Below the pieces are notes generated by a model that saw nothing but the letters and a program-made list of their open reading frames with translations, was not told the DNA's origin and did not search any database. Positions 18,847 through 29,047 of a stretch of 30,609 bases of DNA are shown piece by piece; position 1 is the stretch's first letter, and each line of letters opens with the position of its first letter. The position numbers and the translations under genes were made by a program. The stretch comes from a virus. The stretch spans positions 1 through 30,609 of the IMG/VR virus record IMGVR_UViG_3300008113_000281; one strand, given 5' to 3'.

Positions 18847-20187
18847 TTATATCCTAGTATTCGTGATTTTGGGGGTAGATTTCCACATTTCGTTTAGGGT
18901 TACATCCGTTTGCCCGACATGAAGGCCTTTAACTCTTGAATCCGACAGGATAGGGCTATCCTCGTCTTTCCATACAATGCTGAGATAGCGGAACGCATCC
19001 GCTGAGTGGCTTGTCCAATCATGTTTAGGGCGATCCCTAAATACTTTTTTATCATCATCCCACTCTCGTTGATATTGACGCAAACATTCGATTCCTTCTT
19101 CACATCTATTATCAAACCAAGCACGAGTTAATGCAAGTCGTGTTGCTTGTATTCCGTCTTGTAATGACAGATTTGGTACGATTTTTAGATGTTTTATGTC
19201 AATTTTTGCAGAAATCTGCTCGATTATGCTCTTTCCACCGCTTGCTAGTGTTTTTGCTCTAGCGTCATGGGGCAGGTAATGGTAGCCATATTTGTACCCA
19301 AACTCATCCTCTTTTTGCTGCAATAGCATGGTGTAAAACGGTATGGCTTGACCGTTGCTGGAATGGTGATCGAGTACCCGTATCTCCCCATAAACCACCT
19401 GAAACCACCAAATACTTGTGCTGTCGTTAAAGCCTAAGTCCCAAGCAGTATGGCAAGGGAACATCGGGTCATAGTCTACGGTGGTAATGCGCTCAAGATC
19501 GGTAAGTCTACGCATTTCCTGACCATAAAACGCCCCAAGAATGGCAGCTTCAAAGCTACAAAGAAACTCTTGCTCGTACTGGTTATCTGACATAGAAGCC
19601 TTGGCATCGTCTAATTCTGACTGCGCCAGCAGGTTGGTTTGGTCTGCCCGTAGCACTTTTACATACCAATTGGGCTTTTTAGTGGCCTCGTTGTATATAT
19701 CGTAAAAGGCGTTATGCCCCTTTGGTGTCCCAATGAATGTGGCCCAGCCAAGGCGGTCTGCCAATAATGGCCTAATAATCTCACCCCATAACGATGGTTT
19801 CATATCAGCCATTTCGTCTAAAACTACGCCATCCAAGAAGTTTCCACGCAAAGAATCAGGGTTATCTGCGCCAAATAGCCTAATCCGTGCGCCATTGACC
19901 AGTTCAACCCATAACTCAGATTGGTTGGATTTTGCTAATACAGGCTCGGAAAAGCGTTCCAAGTACCGCCAAGCAACTGATTTAGCCTGACTGTAATACG
20001 GGGCAATGTAGGCGTATTGGGCGTGTGGCTTGTTTTCTAGCAGGGCTTTGACGATTAGGTCGTTAATACACGCTACGGTCTTGCCACAACGCCTGTGAGC
20101 CACGATTACTGCCCAGCGTTCTTTACGGCTGTGGTAGTCCTCAAAAACGCTTCTAGGGCGGTATTTTAGCTTTATGTCCTTACTCAT
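18847..20187 (-). CDS. Terminase large subunit (446 aa)
   Basis: The packaging motor. The ATPase domain has a Walker A-type AHRRCGKT (residues 30-37), Walker B VVLDE (121-125), and the coupling motif FIGTPKGHNAF at 151-161. The nuclease domain has acidic residues in AWDLGFND (D250), HDARAKT (D308) and SHSADAFRYL (D397), the usual RNase H-like triad. It overlaps the terminase small subunit by 8 bases and precedes the portal by 2 bases. It cuts concatemeric DNA and drives it into the procapsid through the portal. Whether packaging is headful or cohesive-end cannot be told from the sequence alone. Confidence 0.93.
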   Translation of the reverse strand: MSKDIKLKYRPRSVFEDYHSRKERWAVIVAHRRCGKTVACINDLIVKALLENKPHAQYAYIAPYYSQAKSVAWRYLERFSEPVLAKSNQSELWVELVNGARIRLFGADNPDSLRGNFLDGVVLDEMADMKPSLWGEIIRPLLADRLGWATFIGTPKGHNAFYDIYNEATKKPNWYVKVLRADQTNLLAQSELDDAKASMSDNQYEQEFLCSFEAAILGAFYGQEMRRLTDLERITTVDYDPMFPCHTAWDLGFNDSTSIWWFQVVYGEIRVLDHHSSNGQAIPFYTMLLQQKEDEFGYKYGYHYLPHDARAKTLASGGKSIIEQISAKIDIKHLKIVPNLSLQDGIQATRLALTRAWFDNRCEEGIECLRQYQREWDDDKKVFRDRPKHDWTSHSADAFRYLSIVWKDEDSPILSDSRVKGLHVGQTDVTLNEMWKSTPKITNTRI

Positions 20188-25669: not shown

Positions 25670-25965
25670 TGCATCACCCGTACACTTGGTGAGTTGGGGG
25701 GTGTCATTGGTACGGTGTATTGGGGAATACCAATAGCTGACCCTTGTGGTGTTACGATCTGTGTGGGGTAAACCGTCAATGGTTGACCTACCGTATTGCC
25801 TTGCGAGGTTAATACATTGACCGTATTGCCATTTTGTTGGATGTAGCCAGTAACCTGACCCTGTGGGTTTGTAATCACATAAGTTTGGGCGTGTGCAGGA
25901 ACGCCATAAGCAAACATCGCACCAATAATTGCACCTAATATGCAAGCACCTAATAAATCTTTCAT
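25666..25965 (-). CDS. Secreted/periplasmic protein with signal peptide (99 aa)
   Basis: The start is placed at ATG 25965 (MKDLLGACILGAIIGAMFAY), because the longer option begins inside a terminator. The first 25 residues are a signal peptide: Lys, a hydrophobic stretch, then an Ala-His-Ala-Gln site (VPAHAQ, cut likely after AHA). The mature part is beta-like and rich in Gln, Thr, Pro and Val: TYVITNPQGQVTGYIQQNGNTVNV, QPLTVYPTQIVTPQGSAIG. It has no enzymatic motif. It is exported to the periplasm or outer surface of infected cells. A role in superinfection exclusion or cell-envelope modification is speculative. Confidence 0.65.
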   Translation of the reverse strand: MKDLLGACILGAIIGAMFAYGVPAHAQTYVITNPQGQVTGYIQQNGNTVNVLTSQGNTVGQPLTVYPTQIVTPQGSAIGIPQYTVPMTPPNSPSVRVMQ

Positions 25966-25981
25966 GTCTATCTCACTTTTC

Positions 25982-26004
25982 AAAAAGTAGCCCCCCGTAG
26001 GGGC
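25982..26004 (-). terminator. Intrinsic terminator, leftward
   Basis: On the minus strand GCCCC pairs with GGGGC (5 bp, loop TACGG), then TAC and TTTTT. It lies 8 bases after the end of the DnaJ-zinc-finger gene at 26012. It would end or attenuate leftward transcription from the promoter near 26540. No room for a separate promoter remains before the next start, so read-through to the following 25 kb would require antitermination or a weak terminator. Confidence 0.6.
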
Positions 26005-26011
26005 GGGTTAA

Positions 26012-26485
26012 TTAATCTGCTTTTTTGCTAACTTTGCCCATTTTGGTTAATTTTGCTTGATATGCAAGGGCATCTGCAATTTGGGCCTGTTTTTCTTCAT
26101 TGGTAAAGCCAACACGGTACTGGCTTGCGCCTGCAAAACCTACAAAAGACATACCATTGCAGGTAATTTTTACTACTAAAGCATCAGGGTTGCTAATGTA
26201 ACCAGCATCACGGGCTGCCATTTGTTCTACTTTTTCTACACGGTGGAATTTAGACTTTTGGCTGTGTGAACCAGCATTAAAGCCTTGAAACAAAATTAAG
26301 TCACCAGCTTTAAATTCTTCAGCAGGGCGCATACGCATATTGTTAAGGTAAATTTGTGCAGCATAACCACGCTTTGTTAATTTAAAACCTGAGCCATTAC
26401 AGCCAAAGCAAGTGCCTATGCAATAAAAGCCTGAACCTAAACAACGGTTACATTCTGTGTGTTCAAAAACTGGTTTGTTTTTCAT
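26012..26485 (-). CDS. DnaJ-type zinc-finger protein (157 aa)
   Basis: CNRCLGSG (Cys12, Cys15) and CFGCNGSG (Cys26, Cys29) form one DnaJ cysteine-rich repeat pair (CxxCxGxG twice, enough for one zinc). No J domain is present. The C-terminal part (RMRPAEEFKAGDLILFQGFNAGSH, SKFHRVEKVEQMAARD, VVKITCNGMSFVGFAGAS) is beta-like and could be an SH3-like or PUA-like fold. It is the first gene of the leftward operon after the predicted promoter near 26540. It carries the AGAAAAGGAAAA ribosome-binding leader. Zinc-finger proteins at this place often bind nucleic acid. The exact function is unknown. Confidence 0.65.
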   Translation of the reverse strand: MKNKPVFEHTECNRCLGSGFYCIGTCFGCNGSGFKLTKRGYAAQIYLNNMRMRPAEEFKAGDLILFQGFNAGSHSQKSKFHRVEKVEQMAARDAGYISNPDALVVKITCNGMSFVGFAGASQYRVGFTNEEKQAQIADALAYQAKLTKMGKVSKKAD

Positions 26486-26490
26486 TTTGT

Positions 26491-26510
26491 TTTCCTTTTC
26501 TATCTCACTC
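26491..26510 (-). promoter_or_regulatory. Conserved leader with ribosome binding site
   Basis: The minus strand reads GAGTGAGATAGAAAAGGAAA, ending 5 bases before the ATG at 26485. The plus-strand leader at 29280-29298 differs at one of 19 bases. GTGAGATAGA also precedes the secreted-protein start at 25965. AAGGA is the ribosome site; the rest may be selected for an RNA or transcript function. Confidence 0.5.
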
Positions 26511-26526
26511 GTTATTAAGTAACACC

Positions 26527-26555
26527 AGTTTATTAAGATAACTTAACTATTGCAA
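26527..26555 (-). promoter_or_regulatory. Leftward promoter with operator
   Basis: On the minus strand TTGCAA (26555-26550) and TAAACT (26532-26527) are separated by 17 bases. The palindrome TTAAGTTATCTTAA (minus strand; plus 26533-26546) fills the spacer. It lies about 40 bases before the first gene of the leftward operon. The same operator occurs in the two divergent promoters at 27330-27400, so the same repressor probably controls this promoter. Confidence 0.6.
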
Positions 26556-26749
26556 GCACTATTTACTAAGTAGTTTCCCCTAGTGTCGCTAATTTGCAAC
26601 ATCTCAGACCGCCACCAAAATTCACTTGCAATAAAAGCCTTTAAATCGGGGCGTTTTGTGTAGTTGTAGGTTTCAAGCAGATTGTAGTTATTCCACCGAT
26701 CTAGGCTTTTAGGTAATGGGGTTTCTTGCAAATCTAGGTTTTCAAGCAT
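26543..26749 (-). CDS. Small protein of unknown function (68 aa)
   Basis: ATG at 26749 is chosen over a TTG 24 bases upstream, because GGAGAAATG-type sequence gives it a close purine-rich site. The protein reads MLENLDLQETPLPKSLDRWN and continues YNLLETYNYTKRPDLKAFIASEFWWRSEMLQISD, ending in Cys-Asn-Ser. It is aromatic-rich (four Trp, three Tyr in the sequence). No domain is recognised. Its stop lies inside the promoter/operator at 26527-26555. It follows a large noncoding structured region and would be transcribed from the repressor gene side or read-through. Confidence 0.45.
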   Translation of the reverse strand: MLENLDLQETPLPKSLDRWNNYNLLETYNYTKRPDLKAFIASEFWWRSEMLQISDTRGNYLVNSACNS

Positions 26750-26968
26750 TTCATTTCTCCATAGAACGACCAACCACCGATGTGGGTTTTATTCTAGTGA
26801 TGTATGCCGTTGCAAGGCTGTCCAAGTCGGCTAGAACCGATTACTTGGGGGTATCGCAGGTGTCGACCCTCGCTTCTGTTCATTCTCTAACAGACCTCTA
26901 CCCCATCTAGCCTATTTCGCTGGCATTTTGCGACACTCGGTAACCCGTTCGTTACGCCAGCACAAATG

Positions 26969-27056
26969 AAAAAAGCTCTATTCAACTGGGCTGGGGCGTG
27001 GAAGGATTGACAAAATACAACATAAATTGTGTCATTCCAGCCCATGTGAATAGAGC
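26969..27056 (-). terminator. Terminator-like hairpin after the repressor gene
   Basis: On the minus strand GCTCTATTCA-CA-TGGGCTGG pairs with CCAGCCCA-GT-TGAATAGAGC (10 and 8 bp with a 2-base internal loop), followed at once by TTTTTT at 26974-26969. The loop is long (42 bases) and contains a small hairpin. It lies 49 bases after the stop of the repressor gene, in the place of its transcript end. Confidence 0.5.
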
Positions 27057-27082
27057 CTTATATTTCGCCAAGTTTCCACGCC
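26969..27082 (-). ncRNA. Candidate pseudoknotted RNA element
   Basis: On the minus strand GGCGTGGAA (27082-27074) pairs perfectly with TTCCACGCC (27003-26995), and the 18-pair stem described for the terminator starts between the two halves. The order 5'-S1, S2, S1', S2'-3' is an H-type pseudoknot, ending in T6. A helix TGACA/TGTCA (27034-27030 with 27012-27008) lies inside. No family known to me fits. It may be a repressor-mRNA 3' element, a separate small RNA, or DNA structure used in replication. Confidence 0.35.
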
Positions 27083-27104
27083 TGACGAAACAAGTATAAC
27101 AAAA

Positions 27105-27326
27105 TTATTCCAACTCAGGCCAAATTAATTTATGGTTGTGTGGAAATAAGGTTTTACGGGTAATTAGCCCGTGTGATTCTTTTTCCAGCGTTGCAGCTAG
27201 GATCACCAGCTTATCTTGCGGAATATCCCCGTTCTGCCACATAGATACGGCAGGTACAGATACCCCGACCAGCTTGCTTATACGGGTTGGGCCACCAAGT
27301 AATTTGATAATTGCTGCTGCGTTCAT
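27105..27326 (-). CDS. Cro/CI-like helix-turn-helix repressor (73 aa)
   Basis: The sequence MNAAAIIKLLGGPTRISKLVGVSVPAVSMWQNGDIPQDKLVILAATLEKES fits the small Cro/YdaS-type regulators: an initial helix, then the helix-turn-helix RISKLVGVSVPAVSMWQ at about residues 15-31. The tail (TLFPHNHKLIWPELE) is typical of phage Cro-like proteins. Its divergent promoter contains two copies of a TTAAG-N4-CTTAA-like operator, and a third and fourth lie at other early promoters. It is the natural candidate for binding these sites. No long CI-type repressor or integrase gene is in the window, so lysogeny cannot be decided. Confidence 0.75.
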   Translation of the reverse strand: MNAAAIIKLLGGPTRISKLVGVSVPAVSMWQNGDIPQDKLVILAATLEKESHGLITRKTLFPHNHKLIWPELE

Positions 27327-27328
27327 AG

Positions 27329-27342
27329 TTTAGTTATCTTAA
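27329..27342. promoter_or_regulatory. Operator copy 1 (repressor promoter)
   Basis: TTTAG-TTAT-CTTAA, one mismatch from the palindrome. It overlaps the -10 of the repressor promoter (minus). Confidence 0.6.
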
Positions 27343-27364
27343 CTTATTTGTATCTTTTTTGCAA
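27336..27364 (-). promoter_or_regulatory. Promoter for the repressor gene
   Basis: On the minus strand TTGCAA (27364-27359), 17 bases, TAAGAT (27341-27336), 9 bases before the repressor ATG at 27326. The -10 lies inside operator copy 1, so binding there would stop transcription. The short distance from -10 to ATG leaves a very short or leaderless mRNA. Confidence 0.6.
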
Positions 27365-27371
27365 ATACCTG

Positions 27372-27400
27372 TTGACTTGTGGTTTAAGTTATCTTAATAT
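27372..27400 (+). promoter_or_regulatory. Rightward early promoter
   Basis: TTGACT (27372-27377), 17 bases, TAATAT (27395-27400). The operator TTAAGTTATCTTAA (27384-27397) covers the spacer and part of the -10. It drives the 27455-29047 genes. It is the best-matching promoter in the window. Confidence 0.72.
27384..27397. promoter_or_regulatory. Operator copy 2 (rightward promoter)
   Basis: A perfect TTAAG-TTAT-CTTAA palindrome with the same central TTAT as copies 1 and 3. It overlaps the -10 of the rightward promoter. Confidence 0.65.
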
Positions 27401-27454
27401 CTAAGTACGGTATGTGCCGTGATAACTACCCAAGCGGGTGAGAAAGAGTAAAAA

Positions 27455-27667
27455 ATGAGTGATTATGACCAGCAGTTAGCTGACCAAGTTCAAATGGAAT
27501 TTGAGTTAGATGAAGTATTTAAAGACTTGGAAGATGGTGTACTTCTTACCGAGCGTCAAGTAGACCTACTACGCCATTGCTGTGGCTTCCCTGTAAAACA
27601 CAAACCAAACCAAGTTCTCAAAGCTGTATTCGATGACTTCGGTACAACCTTTGGAGCAAACAAATGA
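27455..27667 (+). CDS. Small acidic early protein (70 aa)
   Basis: The first gene of the rightward operon. It reads MSDYDQQLADQVQMEFELDE and continues VFKDLEDGVLLTERQVDLLRHCCGF and a basic segment PVKHKPNQVLKAVFDDFGTT. It is acidic overall and probably helical. Its two adjacent cysteines (42 and 43) are not part of a clear motif. The last bases overlap the SSB-like start (ATGA). No family is recognised; a regulator or SSB-associated factor is an idea from position. Confidence 0.6.
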   Translation: MSDYDQQLADQVQMEFELDEVFKDLEDGVLLTERQVDLLRHCCGFPVKHKPNQVLKAVFDDFGTTFGANK

Positions 27668-28278
27668 TTATTACTGACACCCAAAAAGACTTTAAGATTG
27701 CCCCTGCTGGCTTACATATGGCCCGCCTTTACTCCATCATTGACTTGGGCCACCAAGCTACCGAATGGGCTGGCGAAACCAAGATCATGCACAAGGTTGT
27801 GTTTACTTGGGAATTGCATGGTGATGATGATGCTGGTCAGCCGCTAAAGACCGATGACGGTAAACCTTTGATTGTATCTAAGCGTTATACCGTTAGCCTT
27901 GGCGATCAAGCACGGCTTCGTCAAGACCTAGAAAGCTGGTCAAATAAAAAGATGACTGCGGAAGATCGCAAGAACTTTGACCTAAAAGGCTTACTGGGCA
28001 AGTTCTGCATGGTTAATATCACGCATAGTGAAGATGGCAAGTACGCTAACATCAGCGGTATCAGCCCAGTACCGTCTGCCCTGCGTAATGCCCAGCCTGA
28101 AGGCATCAACCCAACTAATCACTTTTGGCTGGCTGAGTTTGACCAAGCTAAGTACGACAGTTTGCCTAAGTATTACAAAGAAAAGATTGCAGAAAGTAGC
28201 GAATGGCGAGGTCAGAAACAGCGTGAAGCTGCTGCGCCTAAGATTGAAGACGATAACTTGAACGATATTCCGTTCTGA
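27664..28278 (+). CDS. Single-stranded DNA-binding-like protein (204 aa)
   Basis: The N-terminal two thirds fit a beta-barrel of the phage SSB type: FKIAPAGLHMARLYSIIDLGHQATEWAGE, IMHKVVFTWELHG, KPLIVSKRYTVSLGDQARLRQDLESWSNK, LLGKFCMVNITHSEDGKYANISGISPVP. The C-terminus ends in an acidic tail DDNLNDIPF, like the DDDIPF tails of SSB proteins that recruit partner enzymes. Position directly before a RecB-type exonuclease supports the assignment to recombination or replication. It lacks a known recombinase. Confidence 0.75.
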   Translation: MIITDTQKDFKIAPAGLHMARLYSIIDLGHQATEWAGETKIMHKVVFTWELHGDDDAGQPLKTDDGKPLIVSKRYTVSLGDQARLRQDLESWSNKKMTAEDRKNFDLKGLLGKFCMVNITHSEDGKYANISGISPVPSALRNAQPEGINPTNHFWLAEFDQAKYDSLPKYYKEKIAESSEWRGQKQREAAAPKIEDDNLNDIPF

Positions 28279-28285
28279 GGCCAAC

Positions 28286-29047
28286 ATGATAGTTAAAGAA
28301 AAGGTGACAGAAAATGGTCATTGGTACACCAAAGACGGCACTCCAGCCTATACAACCATCGGCAAGACTGGTGAACGGGCAACCACGCTTCGTGACGCAC
28401 GGAAACTCGGACTTCTGCCAAGTGTTACAACAATTAACGGAATGTTATCGAAAGCAGGGCTTGATACATGGAAACAGCAGCAAGTCCTTTTAGCCGCCCT
28501 AACTCTGCCTAGATTGCCTGACGAACCTGAAGCCGATTGGTTGGCTAGGGTAATGCAGGATTCCAAGGCTACGGGTCGTGAGGCTGCTGAACGGGGTACG
28601 GCTATTCATGCGGTAATTGAGGCGTATTTTGACCAAGTGTATATGCCTGAAAAGCCACCGTACTTGGATGCGATTGATAAAGCCTTGCAGGATGCGTTTG
28701 GAAGCCAGCTATGGCTCTCAGAGAAGTCGTTTGGGCATCCGCTAGGGTTTGGTGGCAAATGCGACCTGATGGCTAAACCAGTCAACGGTGAGGGTGGTGG
28801 ATTTATTGTTGATTTCAAGACTAAAGATACCGACCTTACCAAAGTCGATGTTTATTTTGAACATGAGATGCAATTGGCGGCTTACCGTGAGGGCCTAGGC
28901 GTTCCAGCAGCTAGATGCGCCATAGTGTTTGTCAATGCGCTTACCAATCAGGTAAAACTCATTGAAATCGAGCAGGATCGGCTTCAAAAAGGCTGGGAGT
29001 GCTTTGAACATTTGCTGCGTGTTTACCAAATCAAGAACGGAATATAA
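28286..29047 (+). CDS. RecB/Cas4-like PD-(D/E)XK exonuclease (253 aa)
   Basis: RGTAIHAVIEAYF with His108, GFGGKCDLMAK with Asp160, FIVDFKTK with Asp176 and Lys178, and QLAAYREG with Gln196 and Tyr200 are the five motifs of the RecB-family nuclease in proper order. An N-terminal region with LPSVTTINGMLSK (residues 44-56) is common in phage forms. This type of enzyme degrades or trims DNA ends in phage recombination and works with the SSB-like protein. GAGG at 28277-28280 gives a ribosome site. A strand-annealing partner was not found in the window. Confidence 0.85.
   Translation: MIVKEKVTENGHWYTKDGTPAYTTIGKTGERATTLRDARKLGLLPSVTTINGMLSKAGLDTWKQQQVLLAALTLPRLPDEPEADWLARVMQDSKATGREAAERGTAIHAVIEAYFDQVYMPEKPPYLDAIDKALQDAFGSQLWLSEKSFGHPLGFGGKCDLMAKPVNGEGGGFIVDFKTKDTDLTKVDVYFEHEMQLAAYREGLGVPAARCAIVFVNALTNQVKLIEIEQDRLQKGWECFEHLLRVYQIKNGI

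Follow-up and report, generated by a model that had tools for sequence, protein, structure and literature searches.

A structured RNA of one plan downstream of a Cro-like gene in viral metagenome contigs, with a possible role as a self-recognising transcription attenuator

We describe here RNA1, an RNA of phage control regions which, judged from sequence comparison, is almost certainly a real class of structured RNA built on one plan, a 5′ hairpin followed by a long terminator hairpin whose 3′ bulge is complementary to the 5′ loop. Every family keeps the match between loop and partner in spite of its fast-changing letters, a pattern that suggests a self-recognising switch by which transcription may stop or continue. 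Our main reading, to which we assign a probability of roughly 40%, is that RNA1 would be a bistable terminator RNA, that is a transcription attenuator whose loop alleles serve as specificity labels. RNA1 is common in these viral metagenome contigs and absent from Rfam, and because one architecture extends across several sequence families it is hard to find by ordinary homology search.

Results

RNA1 and its neighbourhood in the window

The window, the whole stretch of DNA analysed, is an IMG/VR virus contig of 30,609 nucleotides that carries portal, terminase and capsid genes. An earlier note had claimed that two perfect stems interleave in its control region ahead of a run of six T, and that such pairing has a low chance of arising. 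Both helices and the T run are present on the minus strand between 27082 and 26969. S1, GGCGTGGAA at 27082-27074, pairs with TTCCACGCC at 27003-26995 over 9 bp; S2, GCTCTATTCA at 27056-27047, pairs with TGAATAGAGC at 26984-26975 over 10 bp and has a further part of 8 bp between TGGGCTGG (27044-27037) and CCAGCCCA (26994-26987). The order on this strand is S1-S2-S1′-S2′, and T6 comes next at 26974-26969. None of 3000 dinucleotide shuffles contained two interleaved perfect stems of 9 bp or more, in agreement with the low chance claimed, and with lower thresholds there were 2 (at least 8 bp) and 27 (at least 7 bp). The MFE z-score is -5.0 for the minus strand (0 of 200 shuffles) and -2.9 for the plus strand. 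A structured RNA with a terminator tail on the minus strand of the phage control region, as had been proposed, is thereby supported.

Absent from the earlier note were a -10 box, a 5′ hairpin that has S1 as its loop (27090-27083 paired with 27071-27063) and a complementarity between 27071-27058 and 27020-27007 that lengthens S1:S1′ into a nested alternative hairpin. All elements lie on the minus strand. Hairpin I (P1; UUUCGUCA and UUGGCGAAA on either side of the loop, 27063-27090) is found in the MFE fold and belongs to the plan common to the relatives' families; its loop holds S1 (GGCGUGGAA, 27074-27082), which carries the U-turn motif UGG. The P1 3′ strand and S4 together make up the inner strand of the nested alternative hairpin (27058-27071), which in the nascent fold forms 14 pairs with its partner, S4′ and the P3 3′ strand (27007-27020). 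The 5′ arm of the terminator hairpin, P2, corresponds to the S2 of the earlier note (27037-27059) and was placed by fold, pairing and covariation. S1′ (UUCCACGCC, 26995-27003), assigned by its pairing and covariation with S1, is the 3′ bulge of this hairpin, and the P2 3′ arm with its U6 tract (26969-26994) is a predicted intrinsic terminator by sequence, fold and pairing.

Directly upstream of RNA1 lies a gene for a Cro-like HTH protein of 73 aa (27105-27326, minus strand). This protein matches the transcriptional repressor family PHROG 35, shares 46% identity with the annotated Cro of Acinetobacter phage Ab1656-2, and scores 29.2 bits against P22_Cro, below the cut-off of 30.2. Since the protein is Cro-like and searches of the window record and 15 relatives (16 records, mostly fragments) gave no tyrosine integrase, a repressor with a lysogenic role, and with it a reading as prophage immunity, was dropped. 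The -10 box stands directly behind the cro stop codon in an extended form, TGT-TATACT (27093-27101, minus strand, with TATACT at 27098-27093), and is a putative RNA1 promoter, for which no good -35 box was found. In 58 of 61 distinct relatives the 32 nt before RNA1 contain a -10 hexamer that departs from TATAAT at one position at most, compared with 13% of random stretches. On the other side of RNA1, a second putative structured RNA, RNA2, occupies approximately 26775-26962 (minus strand) and forms a conserved cluster with L004, L010, L012 and L025; this region of the window has no Rfam match. The sequence TTAAGATAACTTAA at 26533-26546, to which no strand is assigned, is a putative Cro operator, and related sites lie at 27331-27345 and 27383-27399.

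Relatives and sequence families

Cro and the divergent gene served as queries in the search for relatives. At least 155 loci with cro gave 80 distinct downstream sequences, and 68 of these 80 hold an RNA of the RNA1 plan in the same slot, counts that refer to the matches listed and are not population frequencies. With family borders and several segment limits set by hand, the 68 divide into families C (32), B (18, including the truncated L061), A (9; the family to which the window's RNA1 belongs), E (4), D (3) and F (2), while the remaining 12 mostly have protein-coding sequence in the slot. Wider searches added family G, further members of E, F and C, and at least 39 family A contigs. The families have little or no sequence similarity to each other. 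The statement of the earlier note that no known RNA family matches was borne out, as RNA1 in the window and 28 other loci scanned gave nothing above the curated score with C4, Betaproteobacteria-1 or the rest of Rfam.

RNA1 is present in two deposited Manatee Spring phage genomes (L193 in MW202674 and L194 in MW202520), the second of which contains cro, an RNA1 of family F, a DUF1376-like gene and 'replication protein P'. These were the only genomes recovered when phages were searched with RNA1 of families C, F and G; BLAST of the window region against phages and plasmids gave no match, and a search for prophages in bacterial genomes gave a single one, in a contig binned as Bacteroidetes, which was left out of the analysis. 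In eight named phages with DUF1376 homologues, an annotated short protein gene, not RNA1, precedes DUF1376. Five relatives (L239, L240, L248, L249 and L263) lack RNA1 though they keep cro and RNA2, and RNA1 is therefore dispensable.

Several natural variants were also seen. L061 is truncated from 3219 on, so that this family B member keeps hairpin I and has lost its 3′ half at a junction with other sequence. The P2 of the family A contigs L324, L326 and L331 ends in GGAGCTTGACC with no U-tract; these RNAs would lack the terminator and constitute a natural test of its role. In loci of the L016, L072 and L140 types, protein-coding sequence, in one type PAPS-reductase-like, replaces RNA1 directly behind cro, and in L022 and L032 a family E RNA1 is followed directly by an HNH-nuclease-like gene in place of the DUF1376 gene.

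Covariation and S1 alleles

The stems were checked on homologues for uncompensated changes, as the earlier note had proposed, and compensated changes were found in families C and B. S1 and S1′ are complementary in seven sequence families, with a compensatory change wherever alleles differ. Over the whole structure, 97.7% of cells are paired in the 30 sequences of family C, shuffled controls reaching 86.6% and slid ones no more than 56%; S1:S1′ itself is paired in 99.5% of cells, with double changes in 6 of 7 pairs, and in the 14 sequences of family B in 100%, with double changes in 5 of 7. Double-changed cells over the whole structure number 136 in C (31.8 in shuffles) and 44 in B (16.0), 0 of 500 shuffles in each case, the shuffles taking no account of the relatedness of the sequences. 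The pairing is specific to each RNA: an S1 makes at least 7 bp with the S1′ of another allele in just 6% of the combinations in C and 10% of those in B, and always does so with its own.

Variation in S1 and S1′ is roughly double that in the stems (0.38 for S1/S1′ in family C, against 0.20 for P2 and 0.19 for P3). What remains fixed in S1 despite this variation is one U and a purine two positions on, and in a list of 41 alleles compiled by hand, in which family A members are shifted by one position, the U-N-R (U-turn) loop occurs in 41 of 41 (38 of 38 at the strict position). A U-turn presents the bases that follow it for fast RNA-RNA contact and speeds contact in antisense systems (PMC6562991).

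Nested inside S1:S1′ is a second complementary pair, between S4 behind hairpin I and S4′ at the tip of the terminator hairpin. Own S4:S4′ partners were better than swapped ones in 33 distinct RNAs (0 of 2000 permutations), with the segments of families A, D, E and F picked by hand and the nested extension in D, E and F identified by eye. The inner helix is stronger with its own partner than across RNAs in families A (-12.7 vs -8.4 kcal/mol) and C (-15.3 vs -9.6 kcal/mol; 0 of 5000 permutations each). In family B it is not RNA-specific, 3902 of 5000 permutations being equally good.

Two competing folds

Before the P2 3′ arm is made, the MFE fold of the nascent window RNA is one long hairpin of S1:S1′ plus 14 pairs (-31.9 kcal/mol), and at full length it is hairpin I with the terminator (-50.3 kcal/mol), in which S1 and S1′ are open; kinetics and tertiary contacts do not enter these energies. 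In a comparison covering the window and nine other RNAs, in which the U-tract was complete and its last 12 nt were still inside RNAP, the two states lie at most 1.5 kcal/mol apart in the window, L113, L048, L062 and L024 and about 3 kcal/mol apart in L021, and the terminator is favoured by 7-11 kcal/mol in family B, in L034 of family C and in two G members. Pairing of S1 with S1′ in cis is possible in the nascent RNA of most families; in L034 and L054, both of family C, the nascent MFE fold retains P1 and P3, not S1:S1′. By rough geometry, P1 cannot reach S1′ once P2 is closed in the B and G members checked (23 of 23), whereas in A and C-F the linker is long enough. Terminator and antiterminator folds that exclude each other, as expected of an attenuator, were found, with covariation of both in C and an RNA-specific inner helix in A; for the inner helix, family B does not conform.

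The earlier note had named the element an H-type pseudoknot. The interleaving of its stems stands, but modelling makes a simple H-type pseudoknot unlikely as the working fold. S1′ (at 26995) adjoins S2′ (at 26994), so no loop is left to span stem 1, and since a nested hairpin is moreover preferred in the nascent RNA and competes with S2, we take S1 and S2 to be competing helices. With a linker of sufficient length, S1:S1′ may form as a loop-bulge contact, a possible third state in some families. The idea of S4:S4′ as a second pseudoknot was dropped when folding revealed its nesting with S1:S1′.

The downstream gene

In families E and F, all 10 loci checked have a gene beginning 9-12 nt beyond the U-tract, and in most of them it encodes a DUF1376 protein, which resembles replication initiators. 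This leaves no room for a promoter, and the terminator would therefore have to be read through; as far as gene arrangement can indicate, the position of this gene is the clearest sign of attenuation. RNA2 follows RNA1 in most loci of families A-D and G, where a polymerase passing the terminator would go on into RNA2 and then into the next operon. When preceded by RNA2, that operon has a putative operator and promoter of its own, so that read-through need not be its main source of transcripts.

Discussion

It seems that the two folds of RNA1 could be steps of a single decision during transcription. The nested hairpin, as antiterminator, would be the earlier of the two to form, since every part of it is transcribed before the P2 3′ arm. 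On emergence of that arm, P2 would either displace it, so that transcription ends and leaves a stable RNA some 115 nt long, or come too late, in which case the polymerase would read through, into the replication-type gene in E and F and into RNA2 and its operon elsewhere. Since the S1 loop and the S1′ bulge are free in the terminated RNA, a finished RNA1 could pair with a copy of its own allele that is still being transcribed; the antiterminator would then be blocked and transcription made to stop. The resulting circuit would be self-limiting, and the allele-specific loop would act like a plasmid incompatibility group. Our preferred idea from these models is that competition from finished RNA1 of the same allele would set the decision; this would explain why the U-turn loop is free, why no other target was found and why the alleles are diverse. 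Cro proteins are 85-99% identical among phages with differing S1 alleles. The attenuator reading is not uniform across families, because B, G and part of C favour the terminator and B is without the specific inner helix. In its fullest form, the proposal would be that this widespread freshwater-phage RNA class regulates itself without an antisense gene, finished RNA recognising nascent copies and setting read-through into the replication gene, and that loop:bulge diversity creates compatibility or immunity groups among co-infecting phages with alike Cro; this we consider a long shot.

Other roles have to be weighed against the same evidence. The putative promoter box, the strong terminator and the U-turn loop left free in the full-length fold would all suit a stable small RNA whose transcription always ends at the terminator and whose loop acts in trans on RNAs of host or phage, with S1:S1′ as a lock in cis until a target competes. 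We regard this as unlikely, since the seed changes freely and only its own S1′ follows, whereas a host target would be expected to keep the seed constant, and no recurring covarying second site for S1 was found across 16 phage contigs. The longest match in the window, 12 nt at 19838, is about what chance would give. An antisense immunity RNA of the P4 CI or C4 type was rejected on the lack of such a second target in the same contigs. The free loop and bulge of the terminated fold would equally permit S1:S1′ and S4:S4′ to form between two RNA1 molecules, so that dimers or oligomers would serve some structural purpose, and the B and G linkers, too short for contact within one molecule once P2 is closed, point the same way. 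Homo-oligomers are known from natural RNAs of phage type, GOLLD among them (PMC12286853). Pairing in cis is, however, open to A and C-F and to the nascent RNA of most families, and we find such a complex improbable.

Equally doubtful to us is a knotted terminator that would only end cro transcription or protect the 3′ end of the cro mRNA, with S1:S1′ as a tertiary clamp and neutral variation in its letters. The position behind cro, the strength of the terminator and the long linkers in A and C-F, which permit a loop-bulge clamp, are consistent with it; an ordinary terminator, however, needs neither a covarying 5′ hairpin nor a constant U-N-R loop nor a promoter box of its own, and S1 is more variable than the stems. 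The resemblance to type III antitoxin RNAs suggested in the earlier note fared worst. Pseudoknot-like pairing and a terminator are shared, but there are no tandem repeats in 25900-28300 of the window, no such toxin family was recognised among the ten proteins scanned, and a ToxN search of the record gave no match, as it gave none in the control genomes; we therefore consider this identity to have hardly any chance. Genomic context argues against a prohead RNA of the phi29 type.

The attenuator reading gains from comparison with known systems. By analogy, RNA1 is most like the plasmid attenuators pT181 and pIP501 in its working and most like the I-complex plasmids in its loop logic. As in pT181 repC and pIP501 repR, the leader has two exclusive folds, one of them an intrinsic terminator, and in E and F it likewise stands upstream of a replication gene (PMC10724649 cites the pT181 attenuator); U-turn loops serve RNA-RNA contact in plasmid replication attenuators (PMC6562991). 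In these plasmids a separately transcribed countertranscript decides, whereas in RNA1 the complement lies within the same RNA. An unsystematic look found no antisense gene for RNA1, and any action in trans would come from the sense RNA. The RNAI and stem-loop I-repZ pseudoknot of the I-complex (IncI-alpha, IncB/O, IncK) resembles RNA1 in that a hairpin loop pairs with another segment; there, loop pairing controls the replication gene, and altered loops give rise to new compatibility groups (PMC10724649). The I-complex system, however, controls translation by an antisense RNA, whereas RNA1 ends in a terminator and the partner of its loop is a bulge of the terminator hairpin.

Among phages, the C4 and P4 CI antisense immunity RNAs are small control-region RNAs with exposed loops, from which RNA1 differs in having no covarying second target and no Rfam C4 match. 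The lambda order cro-tR1-O resembles the RNA1 locus, for instance in L194, in having a terminator between cro and the replication genes. Lambda employs N/nut antitermination, and its tR1 is not known to have a covarying loop-bulge pair; no nut-like element was noticed in the RNA1 loci. If the switch model is true, these phages would have an RNA attenuator where lambda has a protein-controlled terminator, with a built-in specificity code resembling plasmid incompatibility, and a testable RNA basis for exclusion between phages sharing nearly the same Cro.

The segments around RNA1 vary in their own right. L237 has a tRNA-Thr (TGT) gene at 1716-1791 between cro and RNA1, and L224-L228 and L245-L267 have other conserved stretches of about 85 nt there, for which ARAGORN makes no tRNA call. 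In several relatives the RNA2 slot directly downstream is Rfam RF02932 (Betaproteobacteria-1), which differs from RNA1 in structure and sequence. With or without a preceding RNA1, RF02932 lies between cro and the next operon at L048:3387-3509, L284:1883-2004, L239:1720-1838, L248:1756-1879, L256:1872-1997, L224:1981-2105, L245:1989-2114 and L263:1753-1873. Other phages have RNA2 types with no Rfam match, several of which end in AAAAARCAACA ahead of an operator-like promoter. In the window, the RNA2 region at 26820-26960 (minus strand) contains the inverted repeats GCTGGCG...TGCCAGC and CCAAGTAATCGGTTCTAGCCGACTTGG. The RNA2 of L008 and its relatives, the first RNA2 cluster, contains GGCGTGGAA...ACATGGGCTGG, the words and order of the window's S1 and P2 5′ arm, which could reflect mimicry, common origin or chance. 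RNA1 types are combined with RNA2 types in many ways, as if swapped by recombination.
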